Shown piece after piece: positions 1 to 6,973 of a DNA stretch of 6,973 bases (positions within the stretch are counted from its first letter, which is position 1; every line of letters starts with the position of its first letter). The translations under genes and the position numbers were made by a program. This DNA comes from Clostridiales bacterium (GTDB lineage Bacteria; Bacillota_A; Clostridia; Oscillospirales; Oscillospiraceae), in the NCBI GenBank assembly GCA_019417795.1, contig DXUR01000130.1, positions 1 through 6,973 on the forward strand. Direction: 5' to 3'. The notes under the pieces were generated by a model. It worked only from the letters and a program-made list of their open reading frames with translations. It searched no databases and was not told the DNA's origin.

Positions 1-202
1 GTACTTTTGCAATCAGCAAAAGATAAATGGGGCCAGCAAGCAGCCCACCTCCTGCTGGCATGAAAAAAGTAAGTACAGGATTCGTTGCAAAAAAGACACC
101 GCCCACCAATACAAAAACAAATAACAGTGCAGTAAAAATACCTGTTGTTACAAGGTCTTTCACTGTCAGACCTTTGTTCATAGAATTTACTTGATTACTC
201 AT
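1..202 (-). CDS. MptD/Trep_Strep-type ECF transporter S component (N-terminal part, runs off the window)
   Basis: Only the first 67 residues are present; the frame stays open to the window edge. The start is an ATG at 202 preceded by AGGAGGTC seven or so bases upstream. The sequence begins with a short polar tail, then a KGLTVKDLVTTGIFTALLF segment leading into a long hydrophobic helix (about residues 20-38), then a Pro/Gly-rich turn (FFMPAGGGLLAGPIYLLL) and a second helix. This order (LTVKDL, hydrophobic helix, GGP-I turn) is characteristic of the Trep_Strep/MptD family of putative substrate-binding S components of energy-coupling factor importers. These are integral membrane proteins that work with an EcfA/EcfT-type ATPase module, whose genes would be expected further left. 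The substrate cannot be read from this fragment. It is divergent from the AraC-family regulator at 389, which suggests that regulator controls it. Family call from recognised sequence pattern, no search run. Confidence 0.78.
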   Translation of the reverse strand, partial: MSNQVNSMNKGLTVKDLVTTGIFTALLFVFVLVGGVFFATNPVLTFFMPAGGGLLAGPIYLLLIAKV

Positions 203-226
203 TTTGACCTCCTACCTTTCATTGTC

Positions 227-255
227 TTGACTCGACAAGTGGTTTGTGATATTCT
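227..255 (+). promoter_or_regulatory. Promoter candidate for the AraC-family gene
   Basis: TTGACT (227-232) matches the -35 consensus at five of six bases. After exactly 17 bases comes TATTCT (250-255, four of six), preceded by TGA, giving an extended -10. The predicted transcript would start near 262 and have a leader of about 125 bases before the ATG at 389. The minus-strand ECF gene must also be transcribed from this interval, but I see no convincing promoter for it. Confidence 0.6.
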
Positions 256-281
256 TCGGTTAGATAGTTCTAACCACTGTC
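234..281. promoter_or_regulatory. Nested inverted repeats, candidate operator of the divergent pair
   Basis: Two dyads overlap here. A perfect one is GGTTAG (258-263), six bases, CTAACC (270-275), lying on the predicted araC transcription start. A larger imperfect one pairs GACAAGTGGTT (234-244, inside the promoter spacer) with AACCACTGTC (272-281), differing by one inserted base. A third short pair, TTGTC/GACAA, lies at 222-238. Their position over the promoter fits a regulator binding site, plausibly autoregulation by the AraC-family protein, but AraC proteins more often bind direct repeats, so the binding protein is inferred. Confidence 0.4.
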
Positions 282-388
282 TAATACAATACGCATTTAT
301 CGAACAACATTCAATAGGTCCCGGCGATGTTCGTCTGTTCCTTTCAATAGTTCGTCTAATCGTTGCAAAAAGGAGGCGGTCTGTTTTC

Positions 389-1357
389 ATGTCTGAAATT
401 ATTGACCAGTTTTATACACCGTTGCTGATTGAACACGGTTTTATCCATGACCCAGACAACCAGCAATATGGGGCATTAGGTGACTGCTGGAAACTTTCTC
501 CCGAAGTTGGAGAAGGCTCCTACTGGACTTATGGACAGAAAGACCTATATGATATTAAAATCCACAACTTTTCCTTCCACGAAGATTTCATGTTGGAATG
601 TTCCCTGCCGGAATGTCTGAGTATCACTCGGTATGACTCTATTTCCGGGGAGGAATTATCTCCATACCGTAGGCTGTCTGCCGGTTGTATCAAAACATTT
701 ATTGGAGGCTACGCTCCATACAAGGCTTTGATACATAAAAATATTCCAATCCGTTCGGTTGGGATTGAGATTGCACCGGCATATTATGAGGACTACCTGA
801 AAAAACTGTACCCAGAGGCACAGATCAATCCTGTGGATGCATTTCGGAAGATCGACCAAACTTCCGACTTTCCAGAAATGTCACGGTTACTCACAGAAAT
901 CAAAGACTATCGCGGGGAAGGGATTGCCGCAAAACTTTTTTATGAGGGTAAAGTCGCAGAAGCTGTTTCAATGGTGGTGGAATATCAGAAGAAACATCCT
1001 GATAAACCAGCCCATAAGCTCTCTCAACAGGATATTGAAAATCTCCAAATAGTTGCCGCTTATCTTAGCGATCACTATGCTTTTGATATTCCTCTGGAAC
1101 GGCTAACACAGATTGCCTGCATGGGAACAACAAAGCTCAAAAGCTGTTTTAAGAAATACTACGACTGCACCATCACGGAATATGTTCAACAGCGGCGCAT
1201 GAGCCAAGCAGAATATCTGCTGGCATATACAGAGCTGACAGTCGGGCAAGTTGCCCAAACAGTAGGCTATTCCACTTCAAGCCGATTTGCAGAATTATTC
1301 CGAAAAAGCACGGGATTGTTGCCATTAGAGTACAGAAAAAACGCACAGCGAAAGTAA
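389..1357 (+). CDS. AraC-family transcriptional regulator
   Basis: A 322-residue regulator. The start at 389 is chosen because AAGGAGG lies at 370-376 at good spacing; the same frame stays open back to 191, but that extension has no ribosome binding site and crosses the predicted promoter. Residues 1 to about 205 form an N-terminal ligand-sensing or dimerisation region without a motif I can name. Residues about 218-317 are the two-helix-turn-helix AraC DNA-binding domain: the first motif around LERLTQIACMGTTKLKSCF, the second around TVGQVAQTVGYSTSSRFAEL, ending with the typical F-R-K-S-T-G-x-x-P-L-E-Y-R. Length is normal for the family. It is divergent from an ECF-transporter S component and most likely regulates that import system and itself. 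Base composition is more AT-rich than the relaxase region, so this pair may be host flank or separate cargo. The effector is unknown. Confidence 0.9.
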   Translation: MSEIIDQFYTPLLIEHGFIHDPDNQQYGALGDCWKLSPEVGEGSYWTYGQKDLYDIKIHNFSFHEDFMLECSLPECLSITRYDSISGEELSPYRRLSAGCIKTFIGGYAPYKALIHKNIPIRSVGIEIAPAYYEDYLKKLYPEAQINPVDAFRKIDQTSDFPEMSRLLTEIKDYRGEGIAAKLFYEGKVAEAVSMVVEYQKKHPDKPAHKLSQQDIENLQIVAAYLSDHYAFDIPLERLTQIACMGTTKLKSCFKKYYDCTITEYVQQRRMSQAEYLLAYTELTVGQVAQTVGYSTSSRFAELFRKSTGLLPLEYRKNAQRK

Positions 1358-1387: not shown

Positions 1388-1392
1388 CATGA

Positions 1393-1539
1393 TTATTGAA
1401 ATATCAACTCTTGAAAAATAGTTTCCTCCACCTGCACTTTCAGCGTGTTCATCAGCCCCACCCAGCGCATGGGGTCACGGGCTTTCAGTTCCTCGGTGAC
1501 GCCTGCCGCCCCCATCATGCGGAATAGCGAGAAAGGTGG
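1393..1539 (-). pseudogene. tnpV: TnpV-like remnant (C-terminal end only)
   Basis: The minus strand reads S-L-F-R-M-M-G-A-A-G-V-T-E-E-L-K-A, then a segment with D-P-M-R-W-V-G-L-M-N and the ending E-E-T-I-F-Q-E-L-I-F-Q before TAA at 1393-1395. This matches the conserved C-terminal end of transposon-encoded TnpV proteins as I know them (GVTEQLKA, then W-V-x-x-M-N-x-I, then a helix ending in E-L-I-Y). Those proteins are usually about 110-130 residues, and here an in-frame TAA at 1540-1542 cuts off everything upstream, leaving about 49 codons. From the first ATG (1518) only 41 residues could be made, without a clear ribosome binding site. It is therefore read as a decayed 3' fragment of a Tn4451/Tn1549-type element gene, and it marks the left edge of recognisable element sequence. 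Family call is by memory of the pattern, not a search. Confidence 0.6.
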
Positions 1540-1585
1540 TTATTCCAAAATTATCTTGAATTCGGGGATAATACTGGCAAGCAAT

Positions 1586-1774
1586 GCAAAGTGGTACCCA
1601 CTTTGCGAAAACAAGCGGATTCCGTTTACACGGAGCCCGCCTGTTTCATGCTTGTTGGGGCGCTGCCCCAATCCCCGCAGAACACAAGTTTTGTGTTCTG
1701 GAACGATGGATAAATCCATCGGCTGCGCGATTTTTCAAATCGCTTGTGGGCGGGCAGCTCAGCGCTGCTCCGCC
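1586..1774. repeat. Array of seven short-loop hairpins downstream of the relaxase gene
   Basis: Seven inverted repeats of unrelated sequence follow one another. H1 is 1586-1606 (9-bp stem, 3-base loop). H2 is 1621-1634 (5 bp, 4). H3 is 1655-1671 (7 bp, 3). H4 is 1678-1700 (10 bp, 3). H5 is 1704-1721 (8 bp around two bases). H6 is 1727-1743 (7 bp, 3). H7 is 1749-1774 (GGCGG/CCGCC with an inner CAGC/GCTG), which overlaps the relaxase stop. An extra 7-bp pair, AACAAGC (1610-1616) with GCTTGTT (1650-1656), can enclose H2. On the minus strand, co-oriented with the relaxase, the loops of H1 and H6 are GTA and GAA and that of H2 is GTAA, which are stable GNA and GNRA types. More than half of the 189 bases can pair. 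No T tracts follow, so it is not a simple terminator. It could be a structured 3'-UTR RNA or DNA secondary structure used in transfer; function unknown. Confidence 0.8.
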
Positions 1775-3183
1775 TCTTTTTCCCGTCGTTCATTCGCTTC
1801 CTCCTGCTCCTTATCCAACTCCAGAATACGGTCGATATTGGCCTTGGCCGTCAGCAGCTCTTTCATTTCCTCACGGGCTTTTCGGTAGTCGGCGTAGGCC
1901 GCTTTCTTCTCCGCCAGCAGCTCGGCGTACTCGGTATTCAGCGCCTTGATGGTGGGCAGCTTCTTGAAGCCCAGTCCATCAAAATAGTTCTTTGCGGCCT
2001 TGTGGATCGTGATCTCGCTTTCATGCTCCGCAAGAAATTTCTTGGAGTACCCGGTCTTGCGATAGGCAACGTAGGTATCGCGGGTCTTGGCGTAATTGAC
2101 AATATGCTCCCGCAGCACCGCAATCTCGGCCATGCGTGTTTCCGCAGCCTTGATCCTTGCGGAAAGCTCGTTGAAGTGAGCGGACGCTTCCGCCGCTTGC
2201 TCTGAGAGAACAGCGTAATCTAAAAGCTCATGGTCTTGCAGATAGGCCACCGTCTGCGCCATCTGTTTCAGGTTGAACAACGTTGCCCAACGCGCATAAC
2301 CGGCACCTTTGCCCGCGCGTAATTTGGCCTGGATGTCCACCAGAAGATTCCCGCTGCGCTTTTCCGGTTTGACCGGTGCGGCGGCGTTCTTTCGTGGTGT
2401 ATGCGCCTTTTCACCTGCAATCACCGCGCGGAGATCTGCGGGAGTATAACCGTCACCGAGGGTATCCATGCGAATGGACTTTTTCTGTTCGCCGCCTAAC
2501 AGGGACGGGACTTTCTTGCCCTTGACCTCATACCCGGCCTGCCGCAGCAGCTCCAGCAGCGCTTCAAAACTGTCGGGCTTTTGTGTCAGCGCATCGTCAA
2601 TGGCCGCGCAGATTCGCTCCCGGTGGGAGGGCTTCTTTTTGTCGCCCAGCCACTTGTTGTAGCTCTTGCCGTGGCGCTTCGGATTCTCCACGATGGAGTA
2701 GCCGTTCTCGATGCAGATGGTATCGTTGAGCCGCCGCACGGCGCGGCTGCTACCCCAAAAGTTTCTGAATTTCCGGGTCTGGCTGAGTGCGGTGGAGTTC
2801 CAGATCACATGATTGTGAATATGGGCTTTGTCGATATGGGTGCAGACGATATAGGCGTGATTGCCCTTGGTGAAGCGCTTGGCCAGCTCACAGCCCAAAC
2901 GGTTCGCGTCCTCCGGTGTGATCTCTCCGGGGACAAAGGACTGCCGCAGATGGTAGGCAATCACATCATCCTCGCCGCGCACTCTGCCGGTCTTTTGGAT
3001 GTACTGATTCTTGGTGAAAAGAAACTCGGCGTCGGCGATCCGGCTGTCGCATTGCCAGCTCGTAATCAGCCTGCCGCCGTCCGTCTTTTGCGGATTTTCG
3101 GTGTAGTCGATGATGGCGCTGATGGCCTGTCCCACCGTGCGGCCTTTGCCGGTGTGGAGAGGCATCAGGCGTGTGGTTGCCAT
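1759..3183 (-). CDS. MOBP-type relaxase / mobilization nuclease
   Basis: A 474-residue relaxase that would nick oriT and stay covalently bound to the 5' end of the transferred strand. The ATG at 3183 is chosen because AAGGAGGT (3191-3198) lies about eight bases upstream; an in-frame GTG at 3192 overlaps that site and is unlikely to be used. The N-terminal domain (about residues 1-180) has the features of the VirD2/MobA-like relaxase family: a likely catalytic tyrosine in the I-I-D-Y-T-E-N-P motif (Tyr27) and the metal-binding H-I-D-K-A-H-I-H-N-H motif (His116, His121, His123 and His125). A central basic, Pro-rich region (about 180-310) follows. The remainder is strongly helical and charged, ending E-R-R-E-K-E-A-E-Q-R, probably coiled coil. 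It appears intact. Its usual partner MobC lies about 3.6 kb upstream instead of adjacent. The exact Mob subfamily is not assigned. Confidence 0.93.
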   Translation of the reverse strand: MATTRLMPLHTGKGRTVGQAISAIIDYTENPQKTDGGRLITSWQCDSRIADAEFLFTKNQYIQKTGRVRGEDDVIAYHLRQSFVPGEITPEDANRLGCELAKRFTKGNHAYIVCTHIDKAHIHNHVIWNSTALSQTRKFRNFWGSSRAVRRLNDTICIENGYSIVENPKRHGKSYNKWLGDKKKPSHRERICAAIDDALTQKPDSFEALLELLRQAGYEVKGKKVPSLLGGEQKKSIRMDTLGDGYTPADLRAVIAGEKAHTPRKNAAAPVKPEKRSGNLLVDIQAKLRAGKGAGYARWATLFNLKQMAQTVAYLQDHELLDYAVLSEQAAEASAHFNELSARIKAAETRMAEIAVLREHIVNYAKTRDTYVAYRKTGYSKKFLAEHESEITIHKAAKNYFDGLGFKKLPTIKALNTEYAELLAEKKAAYADYRKAREEMKELLTAKANIDRILELDKEQEEANERREKEAEQR

Positions 3184-3190
3184 GTTGGAC

Positions 3191-3198
3191 ACCTCCTT
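3191..3198 (-). promoter_or_regulatory. Ribosome binding site that fixes the relaxase start
   Basis: On the minus strand AAGGAGGT stands about eight bases before the ATG at 3183. The upstream in-frame GTG (3192-3190) shares bases with this site, which rules it out as the normal start. Confidence 0.85.
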
Positions 3199-3282: not shown

Positions 3283-4062
3283 TTATTTTATCAGTTCATG
3301 AATGGCCTTCACAATCGTAAGTCCATAGTCAACAAGGAAGGTCTTTTGCTCTTCGGAATATGTCTTCCTTTCTGCTATTGCTTCGTCTGTGCAATGTCTA
3401 AAACACTGCATTTGCTTTCTGTAGTTTTTTACTATCGTATCGTCAATGAACCCACAACACACTTTTTCATATTCTGGCGTAATAAATTTTCCATCTTGCT
3501 TCAACATATTTTCAATAAGATTTGCAATCTCAGCAATTTTCTCGTCTGTATGCATACAGTTGAAAGACGCCTGTCTGGTAGAGATTTCGATGAATTTTTG
3601 GTTTATAGAATCGCTCACCTCAATGTTGCAAGACTTTTGCATAAATGTCAGCTCCGCAACAAAGGCTCTTCTGGTTGCATAGCGGACGGTTCCATTATCG
3701 TCTCCACCCAGTGCGATAATTCGGTTCCTAATTTCTCCGTATGTGAAGTCAGCCGGTTCAGCAGGTGGTCTTGCTAATATTCTGGGAAATTCTTTTATCT
3801 CATAGCCAAGTGTATTCAGATAATATGTTATTAGATAAAACCAACATTTGTTTTCCGGTGAAAAATTAACATCAGGCTGGCACAGCTCTTTGAATTTGGT
3901 GATTGCTTCTTCGACATCATAAATCTCGAATTGGTAATCCTGAGTTTCTTCTTCGCCTGTGAAGAGGTTGTATGTATAGTTCACTTTTTTTACGGAATTC
4001 AGAAAGCGATGATGATATTCAGATTCCTTTATATTTTGAAAATAGAACTCTTTTAAGTCCAT
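3283..4062 (-). CDS. Unrecognised 259-residue protein, third gene of the AbiE unit
   Basis: I do not recognise this protein. The ATG at 4062 is preferred because AAGGGG (about 4071-4076) lies eight bases upstream; a TTG one codon earlier is less likely. The protein is soluble, with no signal peptide or membrane segment. The N-terminal part (to about residue 95) is rich in Tyr, Phe and acidic residues and has a C-W-F-Y-L-I-T-Y-Y stretch. A loop P-P-A-E-P-A-D-F-T-Y-G follows near 99-109. The C-terminal half is helical, with T-D-E-K-I-A-E-I-A-N-L-I-E (about 172-184), R-K-Q-M-Q-C-F-R-H (about 215-223) and K-A-I-H-E-L-I-K at the end. The helical half with an R...R-H segment recalls abortive-infection or HEPN-like proteins, but the R-x4-6-H spacing is not met clearly. 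It is distinctly more AT-rich than abiEi, abiEii and the relaxase, suggesting separate acquisition. It starts 46 bases after abiEii with no terminator between, so it is probably co-transcribed. Confidence 0.8.
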   Translation of the reverse strand: MDLKEFYFQNIKESEYHHRFLNSVKKVNYTYNLFTGEEETQDYQFEIYDVEEAITKFKELCQPDVNFSPENKCWFYLITYYLNTLGYEIKEFPRILARPPAEPADFTYGEIRNRIIALGGDDNGTVRYATRRAFVAELTFMQKSCNIEVSDSINQKFIEISTRQASFNCMHTDEKIAEIANLIENMLKQDGKFITPEYEKVCCGFIDDTIVKNYRKQMQCFRHCTDEAIAERKTYSEEQKTFLVDYGLTIVKAIHELIK

Positions 4063-4108
4063 CAAAGCATCCCCTTATCTTCAAAGATTTCAATTTGCTG
4101 AATGTTTA

Positions 4109-4948
4109 CTACTGCGCCAGCCGATAAAGGCTGCGGATGGATTCCATGACCGTATGCCACGACAGGTCGGCAGCATAGGAAAACTTCTTCTGATAAGCCC
4201 GCCACAGCTTTTCCATGTTTGGGTCGGCCTCAACTTCATCAAAGGCCGCAGGCGCGTCGGCAAGATACTTCTCTGTACCGCGTTTCCTGGCCGTTGCAAT
4301 GAGCGCCGCACGGAGATCGGCTGGGATGATGCTCTGGCCGTGGAGCTGGCTCAGAATGTGCAGATCATAGAAATCTCTCATGCGGGTGTTGGTGGTGGCG
4401 CGGGACACGACGGTTTCCAGCTTTTCGGCCAGAACGGTTTCCAGATTGTACGCCCAAATTTCGATGGAGCGATCCTCCAACATCAGCTTAAAGCTGTAAC
4501 GCACCTCGTGGGGCGTGATGGCGTCGCCGGTGGAAATGTCGATCTTGAGCGGCGTTATCACACCGTCAAACTCCGTTTCCATGCTGACACGGATGCCCGG
4601 ATACTCGGCCTCGTCCATGATCTCGGAAATGCGCTTCAACCGGAACTCCACGCCATCGTCCACCGGTACGGAGATGATGGAGGCAATCATATTCTCTACT
4701 TCTTCGATGCCGACCGTCGCACCCTTTACGGTCGCGTCAATGTCCATCGTTGAGCGGGCGTCAAGGCCGACCATGGCAGCCACCAGCATCCCGCCTTTAA
4801 GGATAAACTTGTCCCGATATTCCGAAAGAGAAATGCGCTCCAGAAAGCGCTCCATCATGTAATTGCGCATCAGGATTTGCGCATCTGCGGATTTGTCCTT
4901 GGAGAGATTGCGTATCAGGTCTTTGAGCTGCCGTGCAGTCTTAATCAT
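4109..4948 (-). CDS. abiEii: AbiEii-family nucleotidyltransferase toxin of a type IV toxin-antitoxin system
   Basis: A 279-residue protein of the AbiEii/DUF1814 nucleotidyltransferase family, cytoplasmic toxins that transfer nucleotides to a cellular target and cause growth arrest during phage infection. The family motifs are visible in order: K-G-G (51-53) followed by R-S-T-M-D-I-D (65-71), giving the catalytic D-x-D (Asp69, Asp71); K-I-D-I-S-T (135-140) with a third acidic residue; E-T-V-L-A-E-K-L (170-177); and R-M-R-D-F-Y-D (189-195). All look intact, so the enzyme should be active. The start ATG overlaps the abiEi stop as ATGA, implying translational coupling in which antitoxin is made first. 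Length is usual for the family. Base composition matches abiEi and the relaxase region. Target and phage range cannot be read from sequence. Confidence 0.92.
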   Translation of the reverse strand: MIKTARQLKDLIRNLSKDKSADAQILMRNYMMERFLERISLSEYRDKFILKGGMLVAAMVGLDARSTMDIDATVKGATVGIEEVENMIASIISVPVDDGVEFRLKRISEIMDEAEYPGIRVSMETEFDGVITPLKIDISTGDAITPHEVRYSFKLMLEDRSIEIWAYNLETVLAEKLETVVSRATTNTRMRDFYDLHILSQLHGQSIIPADLRAALIATARKRGTEKYLADAPAAFDEVEADPNMEKLWRAYQKKFSYAADLSWHTVMESIRSLYRLAQ

Positions 4949-5538
4949 AGGAGTACCTCCAAATACTGCCGAAGCAGTTTTTCAACACGGAACATCTGCG
5001 CATAGCGCATCAGCTTCCGCAAGTCCTTGTCTTTTCGTTTTGCGTATTGCTTGAGTGCATCCTGAAAGGTCTGCATCTCGATTCCACTGCGGCTGCGGAT
5101 CAGATCGCAGATCGTGCGCTCCATATCATAGACGGGAACCGGGTTGCCAAAGGGCGTGTTCATCGTGACGATCCCCACATCATGCAATTCTTTCTTGATG
5201 GTATAGACCTTGATGCCGTCTGCTTGCAGGCTGGCAGGATTGTAGCCGGTCTTGACCGTGATGGAATACGGATTCGGCTCCCGGTCGGTCAGGTCATGGA
5301 AAAACAGCGCGCTCTCATGGGAGAATACAGCCTGCGCACAGCGAAGGTGCAGCAGGTACATGGCGTCCGTCCATGCGTCAGGCGAAACATAAATGCCATG
5401 CGCGGCCTGCTCTACGCCGCGCTGCTTGGCGTAGGCGTAAAACGTGGACTTGGCAATACCGATTTCCAAAACCTGCGCGGTTTTGACGATCCCATTGTTT
5501 TGCTGAAAAAGCAGATCAAGCCGGTCGTAGGCGGTCAT
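4945..5538 (-). CDS. abiEi: AbiEi-family antitoxin and transcriptional repressor of a type IV toxin-antitoxin system
   Basis: A 197-residue protein of the AbiEi family. In type IV systems the antitoxin counters the toxin without forming a stable complex with it and also represses its own promoter. An N-terminal winged-helix-like domain is visible: D-L-L-F-Q-Q-N-N-G-I-V-K-T, then the helix K-S-T-F-Y-A-Y-A-K-Q-R-G-V, then the wing G-I-Y-V-S-P-D-A-W (residues about 6-57), as in AbiEi_4-type domains. The C-terminal part (about 65-197) has the family segments F-S-H-E-S-A-L-F-F-H-D-L-T and P-V-Y-D-M-E-R-T-I-C-D-L-I-R. The ATG at 5538 has AAGGAAG about eight bases upstream. It is the first gene of the unit, overlaps abiEii by four bases, and is preceded by a promoter bracketed by inverted repeats, the layout expected for negative autoregulation. 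Confidence 0.9.
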   Translation of the reverse strand: MTAYDRLDLLFQQNNGIVKTAQVLEIGIAKSTFYAYAKQRGVEQAAHGIYVSPDAWTDAMYLLHLRCAQAVFSHESALFFHDLTDREPNPYSITVKTGYNPASLQADGIKVYTIKKELHDVGIVTMNTPFGNPVPVYDMERTICDLIRSRSGIEMQTFQDALKQYAKRKDKDLRKLMRYAQMFRVEKLLRQYLEVLL

Positions 5539-6773: not shown

Positions 6774-6973
6774 TTATTTCAGCGCCGCCAGCGAGGAAAC
6801 GATTTTCTCCGCCGCCGTCCATATCCGCTCCTGATTTTGCTGAATGTCCTTCAGATCGGCCTCATAGATACGTCCCGTCTCGTGGGCGCGGCGGGTGAGC
6901 TGATTGAGGTTGTTGCTGGAATACCGAAGCAGGGACACCAGCTCCCGCAGCTCCGGGAGATCGAGCTTTACTA
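6774..6973 (-). CDS. mobC: MobC-type relaxosome accessory protein (C-terminal part, runs off the window)
   Basis: The last 65 residues of a minus-strand gene that continues past the right edge. The sequence L-R-E-L-V-S-L-L-R-Y-S-S-N-N-L-N-Q-L-T-R-R-A, followed by the helical E-T-G-R-I-Y-E-A-D-L-K-D-I and a final helix ending L-A-A-L-K, is the C-terminal pattern of the MobC family: an N-N-L-N-Q-L-x-R-x-A motif followed by a long helix. MobC proteins bind oriT DNA and help the relaxase to melt and nick it. In related elements mobC usually sits immediately upstream of the relaxase gene, with both in the same direction. Here the direction is kept but about 3.6 kb separates them, including an opposing XRE gene. 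The N-terminal DNA-binding part lies outside the window. Confidence 0.82.
   Translation of the reverse strand, partial: VKLDLPELRELVSLLRYSSNNLNQLTRRAHETGRIYEADLKDIQQNQERIWTAAEKIVSSLAALK

Follow-up and report, generated by a model that had tools for sequence, protein, structure and literature searches.

A conserved row of covarying hairpins behind a Tn1549-like relaxase gene as the probable origin of transfer of a clostridial mobile element

Origins of transfer (oriTs) are, according to PMC4652767, commonly located upstream of the mob genes; the same source reports that plasmids with two oriTs did not carry them on the same strand, and it documents that relaxases recombine oriTs with each other, the core setting the limits. 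The nic sites tabulated in PMC7755788 include RYGCTTG/C for Tn1549 and TGCTTG/CCA for pRJ6 (here and below the slash marks the cut), and the relaxase of Tn1549 has been reported to act in cis (PMC6856555). Elements that hold only an oriT are also known, as iOriT or pOriT (PMC11389934). In the pWBG749 family of Staphylococcus (MOBP), as presented in PMC4652767 and PMC8136818, a branched hairpin of single-stranded DNA stands by the nic core and is conserved in shape and not in sequence, accessory repeats lie upstream, copies occur on elements without mobilisation genes, and recombination at the core is stimulated by the relaxase. The locus examined here is alike in these respects; it differs in its core (CTTATGCTCTT in PMC4652767, GCATTGCTTGC here), in its hosts and in an accessory part that covaries as hairpins. 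With sso1 of ICEBs1 it has in common that several stem-loops stand in a row immediately behind the relaxase gene and that shape matters, whereas the account of sso1 in PMC4595007, by whose description the two are likened, mentions no nic at its end. In the open-licence literature on the Tn1549 oriT, single-stranded DNA origins, tnpV, oriT recombination, phages and structured oriTs of Clostridiales, surveyed by titles and the beginnings of abstracts, we found no description of this array family.

The window, that is, the whole stretch of DNA analysed (6,973 nucleotides, contig DXUR01000130.1 of a Clostridiales bacterium), carries on its minus strand a relaxase gene (1759-3192, 477 aa; PF03432, E 3e-31) and mobC (6774-6971; PF05713, E 7.4e-8), the start of which lies beyond the window. 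The interval 3283-5538, from the relaxase to DUF5699, holds AbiEi/AbiEii-like genes and a gene for a 260-aa protein without a Pfam match, and it differs between relatives. An earlier note on this DNA had pointed to seven inverted repeats in a row at 1586-1774. All of them were confirmed in the sequence, with the minus-strand loops GTA, GTAA and GAA, but they do not simply stand side by side, as the first two lie inside a three-way junction, and in the minus-strand DNA fold the structure extends to 1578, eight bases past the start given by that note. The hairpin row is real and far above chance (z -8.6 to -10.1): for the 211 nt of 1570-1780, z was -8.78 for the minus and -8.62 for the plus strand with RNA parameters, and -10.13 and -10.11, respectively, with DNA parameters, and in each case 0 of 200 dinucleotide shuffles folded as well.

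Read along the minus strand, the row begins at 1749-1774 with a hairpin whose stem is bulged and whose loop contains the stop codon of the relaxase gene. This hairpin may belong to the relaxase end and not to the array unit, since the relative L016 has an equivalent one in a place where the array is missing. P1 (1727-1743, 7 bp, loop GAA) follows, then the linker CAGCC (1721-1725), which is invariant or nearly so in alignment A3, P2 (1704-1721, 8 bp) and P2b (1678-1700, 10 bp); the latter is present in the closer relatives L001 and L003-L012 and missing from most others. P3 (1655-1671, 7 bp) is preceded by GGGGATTGGGG. The motif CAACAAGC (1650-1657) is complementary to the nic core and likewise (nearly) invariant in alignments A1 and A3. 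The row ends in the folded three-way junction P4 (1578-1654), whose closing helix pairs 1649-1654 with 1578-1583 (CAAGCA with TGCTTG) around two hairpins: P4a (1609-1646), which folds with 10-bp outer arms, an inner 5-bp stem and the loop GTAA and has a shorter, single-hairpin form in some relatives, and P4b (1586-1606, 9 bp, loop GTA), which adjoins the predicted nic. A search of the hairpin region against Rfam gave no family that reached its gathering score (best sub-threshold E-value 0.98). Ordinary terminators and CRISPR were set aside, because the stems show covariation and do not repeat one another, in agreement with the earlier statement that this is neither a repeat family nor an ordinary CRISPR. 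As blastn of 1380-1800 returned nothing in plasmids (and two phage records), a structure model was used instead.

This model, R1, comprises P1-P2-P3-CAACAAGC (75 positions) and has as its basis the 25 rows of A3, four of which were imperfectly transcribed; the earlier alignments were non-redundant choices of 36 and then 23 rows. In A3, 12 of 21 pairs changed on both sides (11 when three altered rows were dropped), and the covariation score was reached by none of 500 shuffles, the number of pair types by 32 of 500. Alignment A4 consisted of 48 R1 matches from 41 sources, 46 of them not rows of A3 (L111 and L131, already in A3, were among those omitted). Here 19 of the 21 scored pairs changed on both sides (221 cells; 0/500 shuffles) and 91.9% of cells were paired, compared with at most 52.1% in slid controls, in an alignment that is fitted to R1 and hence biased toward it. 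Both-side changes were found in 6/6 pairs of P1, 8/8 pairs of P2 and 5/7 pairs of P3, in which 93.6% of cells were paired. When strong stems were counted without the model, they were present in 40 of 53 segments for P1, 33 of 37 for P2 and 51 of 62 for P4b, against shuffled expectations of 7.0, 5.1 and 14.9. The closing helix of P4 is uninformative in this regard because both of its sides are nearly invariant. The covariation in relatives that had earlier been asked for thus bears out that the stems are a conserved structure.

In most relatives the array ends with GCATTGCTTGC and the likeness stops after it; P4b and the junction end right at this point, on the 5' side of the nic, and this too is kept in relatives. 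In the window the predicted nic falls between 1578 (G) and 1577 (C) of the minus strand, in GCATTGCTTG/CC (1587-1576), as suggested by a core identical to that of pRJ6 (TGCTTG/CCA), by TTGCTTG being one position (R) off the RYGCTTG/C of Tn1549, and by the breakpoints described below. R1 also gave a match (E 1.3e-7) next to mobC in the Tn1549 element that pMG2200 of E. faecalis carries, where the site folds as P3 and the same two-hairpin junction, ending ATGCTTG/C, and where the relaxase is 36% identical to that of the window. The two sites have in common P3, CAACAAGC, the junction with two hairpins, GCTTG/C at its base, cargo on the leading side and the relaxase family. In Tn1549, by contrast, the site precedes mobC and is on the other strand, with no clear P1 or P2 (R1 puts P1 inside mobC and a 42-nt stretch replaces P2), whereas the array of the window follows the relaxase gene on the relaxase strand and has P1, P2 and P2b in addition. 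In pMG2200 ~11.4 kb separate the first nic from the end of the integrase gene; with a length of ~33.8 kb, which we take to be that of Tn1549, this fits the tabulated position 22239-22266. The probable oriT is of a known kind, and what is new here are the extended covarying hairpins and the position after the relaxase, downstream and not upstream as PMC4652767 gives for most oriTs.

A second, weaker R1 match in pMG2200 (E 0.0021) lies on the same strand before vanR and ends CCATTGCTTGCCAGTATTATC, with the eleven bases after GCTTG in common with the window; the two nic-like sites of this plasmid (L108, 2051 and 3600, minus) are ~1.5 kb apart, and the vanB cluster starts ~240 bp past the second. 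We also noticed further hairpins, each ending TGCTTGC, after the first nic in L143 (1501-1567, minus, and downstream), L088 (3127-3220) and L095 (10717-10820), which resemble repeated P4b-nic units. Similar-looking GC-rich inserts with GGACATCCGGGGGATGTCC-like hairpins and then GACCGGAG were seen inside P3 in L035 (2660-2830) and L154 (1501-1593, minus) and near P1 in L038 (5401-5562); they are perhaps a small mobile hairpin that enters arrays.

Relatives of the relaxase were collected from genomes (the best 80 of 345 loci) and from viral contigs (4 loci). In 75 of these 84 loci the relaxase is followed by the array on its own strand; a sequence pattern found it complete in 73, and R1 added L038 and L050, the latter without the nic end. 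The array does not always adjoin the relaxase: it lies 3.5 kb downstream in L011 and, after contigs were joined by sequence overlap, ~4.45 kb downstream in L036 and L045, in each case on the same strand. It is absent from the fetched stretch in nine loci (L002, L016, L017, L018, L022, L031, L036, L045 and L046). For L002, equating contig C15 with QEKJ01000015 would put the array ~7.7 kb downstream, a placement that follows contig numbering and not overlap (contig C2 of the same genome is tied to L027 by overlap). The genomes of L017, L018 and L022 have arrays that are not tied to the relaxase, and those of L031 and L046, searched with the model at E 0.001, have the relaxase and gave no array. 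The absence of the region from elements that keep the relaxase, named earlier as what would speak against a function, is not seen in 75 of the 84 loci and is seen in a few. The array also follows relaxases that are 38-55% identical to that of the window in the viral contigs L215, L235, L238, L266 and L285. AraC-like and Trep_Strep genes come after the relaxase both in the window (1-1357) and in L002 (5422-9422); the array precedes them in the window and apparently lies beyond them in L002. The record L313 (MT836696.1, 'Bacteriophage sp.') holds an array (92%) and a 96% relaxase fragment ~7.8 kb apart and, having both in one record, is probably a piece of a conjugative element.

The sequences on the two sides of the nic were compared for 70 of 74 sites (200 nt were required on each side; L038 and L050 were not included), which gave 2415 pairs. 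In 66 pairs the sites were at least 93% alike over the 150 nt before the nic and less than 60% alike after it, and exact identity ended 1-5 nt past the nic in all 66; these pairs overlap in membership and are not independent, and they represent at least 17 flank combinations. Six reciprocal pairs (at least 90% alike after the nic, less than 80% before) were also found, and in all six identity began 10-11 nt before the nic, with the core itself. The window and L029 form one of them (91% after, 64% before): their arrays differ and they have the same predicted leading module, the first stretch of which in the window (1390-1577, minus) contains a tnpV remnant (the remnant of L029 is in genome contig G004:C16). 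Judged from these alignments, related elements appear to swap cargo genes exactly at the cut site. The breakpoints fit relaxase-mediated recombination, and the relaxase would be the likely agent of the exchanges.

On the basis of the nic-like end, the kinship with the Tn1549 site and the breakpoints at the nic, single-stranded DNA structure used in transfer, one of the roles proposed earlier, is the best supported. We conclude, with a probability of roughly 0.87, that the hairpin row and the eight bases beyond it are the element's oriT, that they belong with the Tn1549-like MOBP relaxase encoded next to them and that they are selected as single-stranded DNA on the nicked strand. The covarying structure and the linkage to the relaxase also speak for this reading; the deviation from RYGCTTG at the R, the lack of clear P1 and P2 in Tn1549, the place downstream of the relaxase, the weak G.U excess on the fitted alignments, and L031 and L046, with a relaxase and no array at E 0.001, speak against it. 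The relaxase would cut the minus strand at GCATTGCTTG/CC and stay bound to the new 5' end, so that the cargo side (window coordinates below 1577) would lead into the recipient, the relaxase and mob genes would enter last, and the hairpins would trail at the 3' end of the strand that is passed on. There they may be selected as single-stranded shapes for recognition by the relaxosome and for the ending and re-joining of the strand, tasks that we can assign to individual hairpins only by conjecture. Enzymes of this kind are able to link two cut oriTs, so that leading-side modules would be exchanged at the nic.

The array also occurs without a relaxase nearby. A search of 391 genomes of one class gave 45 array matches in 29 genomes at E 1e-4: 13 follow a same-strand relaxase domain at a distance of up to ~1.2 kb, 13 flank tnpV genes, two make up an inverted pair with 42 nt between them, and for the remaining 17 no relaxase or tnpV lies within 9 kb, a view limited by contig ends (for one of these, a same-strand relaxase lies 10 kb upstream). 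Where two arrays are close together, they face outward in all eight cases; in six of these a tnpV gene is enclosed (four were read in the sequence), and in the other two the arrays are 42 and ~60 nt apart. The outward-facing pairs recall the two-oriT plasmids treated in PMC4652767, to which the same-strand pair of the pMG2200 Tn1549 is an exception. In L134, L136, L140 and L144, units of ~960 bp have tnpV and further hairpins between two outward-facing arrays and sit in two different gene neighbourhoods. That tnpV genes generally lie in array-bounded units was rejected, as ten more tnpV loci had no convincing array; a second same-strand match in L130 (E 0.0066) was judged by eye to be a chance match, having neither CAACAAGC nor a nic.

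Among viral sequences, a first search returned 23 stretches, six of them with an array (L088, L093, L095, L097, L098 and L099) and the others looking like chance; a second returned 100 stretches, and 78 new ones among 80 of these were searched with R1. Phage DNA-metabolism genes stand on both sides of the array in L095 and the related contig L098, integrase and repressor genes are close to it in L088 and L230, a terminase gene precedes it in L093, and a partition gene is its neighbour in L099. A PF03432 domain was not found in the records of L088, L093, L095 and L099, and L230 and L241 were compared with the proteins of the window only. The case for phage-borne arrays is firmest for L095/L098, as several of the other contigs are fragments or prophage edges. 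Some copies lie in chromosomes beside ordinary genes. Arrays with no relaxase nearby fit the description of iOriT and pOriT, oriTs without a relaxase, in PMC11389934, and among those that carry them here are a phage replication module and modules of prophages.

We give very little credence to the other earlier suggestion, that the relaxase transcript has a structured RNA at its 3' end, or to a separate small RNA acting by its fold. The minus strand does fold equally well with RNA parameters, and covarying structure by itself does not discriminate RNA from single-stranded DNA. As the comparison of G.U with A.C was weak and partly contrary on the fitted alignments (a weak excess of 35 to 20 in A4, reversed to 9 to 12 in A3 with one pair omitted), G.T and A.C pairs were also counted, both with the same weight, in 57 distinct arrays. 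This gave 12 G.T and 3 A.C among 695 stem pairs (4 and 0 in P1 and P2 alone); the stems are thus almost purely Watson-Crick, and the rare wobbles lean to the relaxase-sense strand, as an RNA would have it. RNA families mostly hold many more wobble pairs, however, and an RNA of the relaxase transcript is hard to reconcile with arrays 3.5 to 4.45 kb from the relaxase or with none near, with an end at the nic where modules change, or with the lack of an Rfam match. GNA triloops, which are specially stable in DNA hairpins, were found on the minus strand in 18/33 P1, 7/24 P2 and 9/48 P4b segments examined. Taken together, the wobble lean, the triloops and the nic indicate the minus strand as the likely functional one, as the earlier note had supposed.

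Another reading keeps the single-stranded DNA and changes its task: P1-P3 would be a single-strand origin (sso) at which a host polymerase or primase starts the complementary strand in the recipient, in addition to the oriT role or as the main role of the upstream hairpins. In ICEBs1, sso1 has three stem-loops directly downstream of the relaxase gene nicK, and its function can survive replacement of the sequence when the fold is kept (PMC4595007). The stems of P1-P3 are conserved and covary, so that here too shape outweighs sequence; they would be on the transferred strand, and a site near its trailing end would suit copying of the whole strand. We nevertheless consider this reading unlikely, because P1-P3 travel with the nic as a single unit, even in copies without a relaxase, and because repeats upstream of the oriT core matter for transfer itself in pWBG749, as reported in PMC4652767. 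Still less probable is that a relaxase-like enzyme moves a transposable unit of which the array forms one end, with relaxase genes, tnpV and others as passengers. The sharp boundary at the nic, the eight outward-facing pairs (six around tnpV) and the chromosomal copies beside ordinary genes would suit such a unit. Yet the relaxase loci have one sharp end only, and the site is akin to the Tn1549 oriT. A search around three copies without a relaxase found no empty site or target duplication but says little here, as the matches to relatives ended in or near genes.

The oriT reading can be carried further, as a possibility that we put forward tentatively and hold to be less probable than not: this structured oriT family may mark where modules meet in mobile elements throughout the Clostridia. 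Relaxases would join any two cut copies, so that whole cargo modules are exchanged at the nic; phages, partition loci and tnpV units without a relaxase would ride on, or recombine with, resident conjugative elements; and a tnpV unit between outward-facing oriTs would be a relaxase-moved cassette. The cis action reported for the Tn1549 relaxase (PMC6856555) counts against it.

The structure model finds transfer origins where a plain DNA search fails, and the breakpoints provide sequence evidence, from many natural loci, for module exchange at the nic. The more surprising part is how far the array unit has spread without relaxases. If the phage and tnpV copies work, the machinery of conjugation would be shared more widely among mobile elements in gut bacteria than one would gather from counting relaxase genes, and this sharing would include Tn1549-type elements, one of which carries vancomycin resistance.
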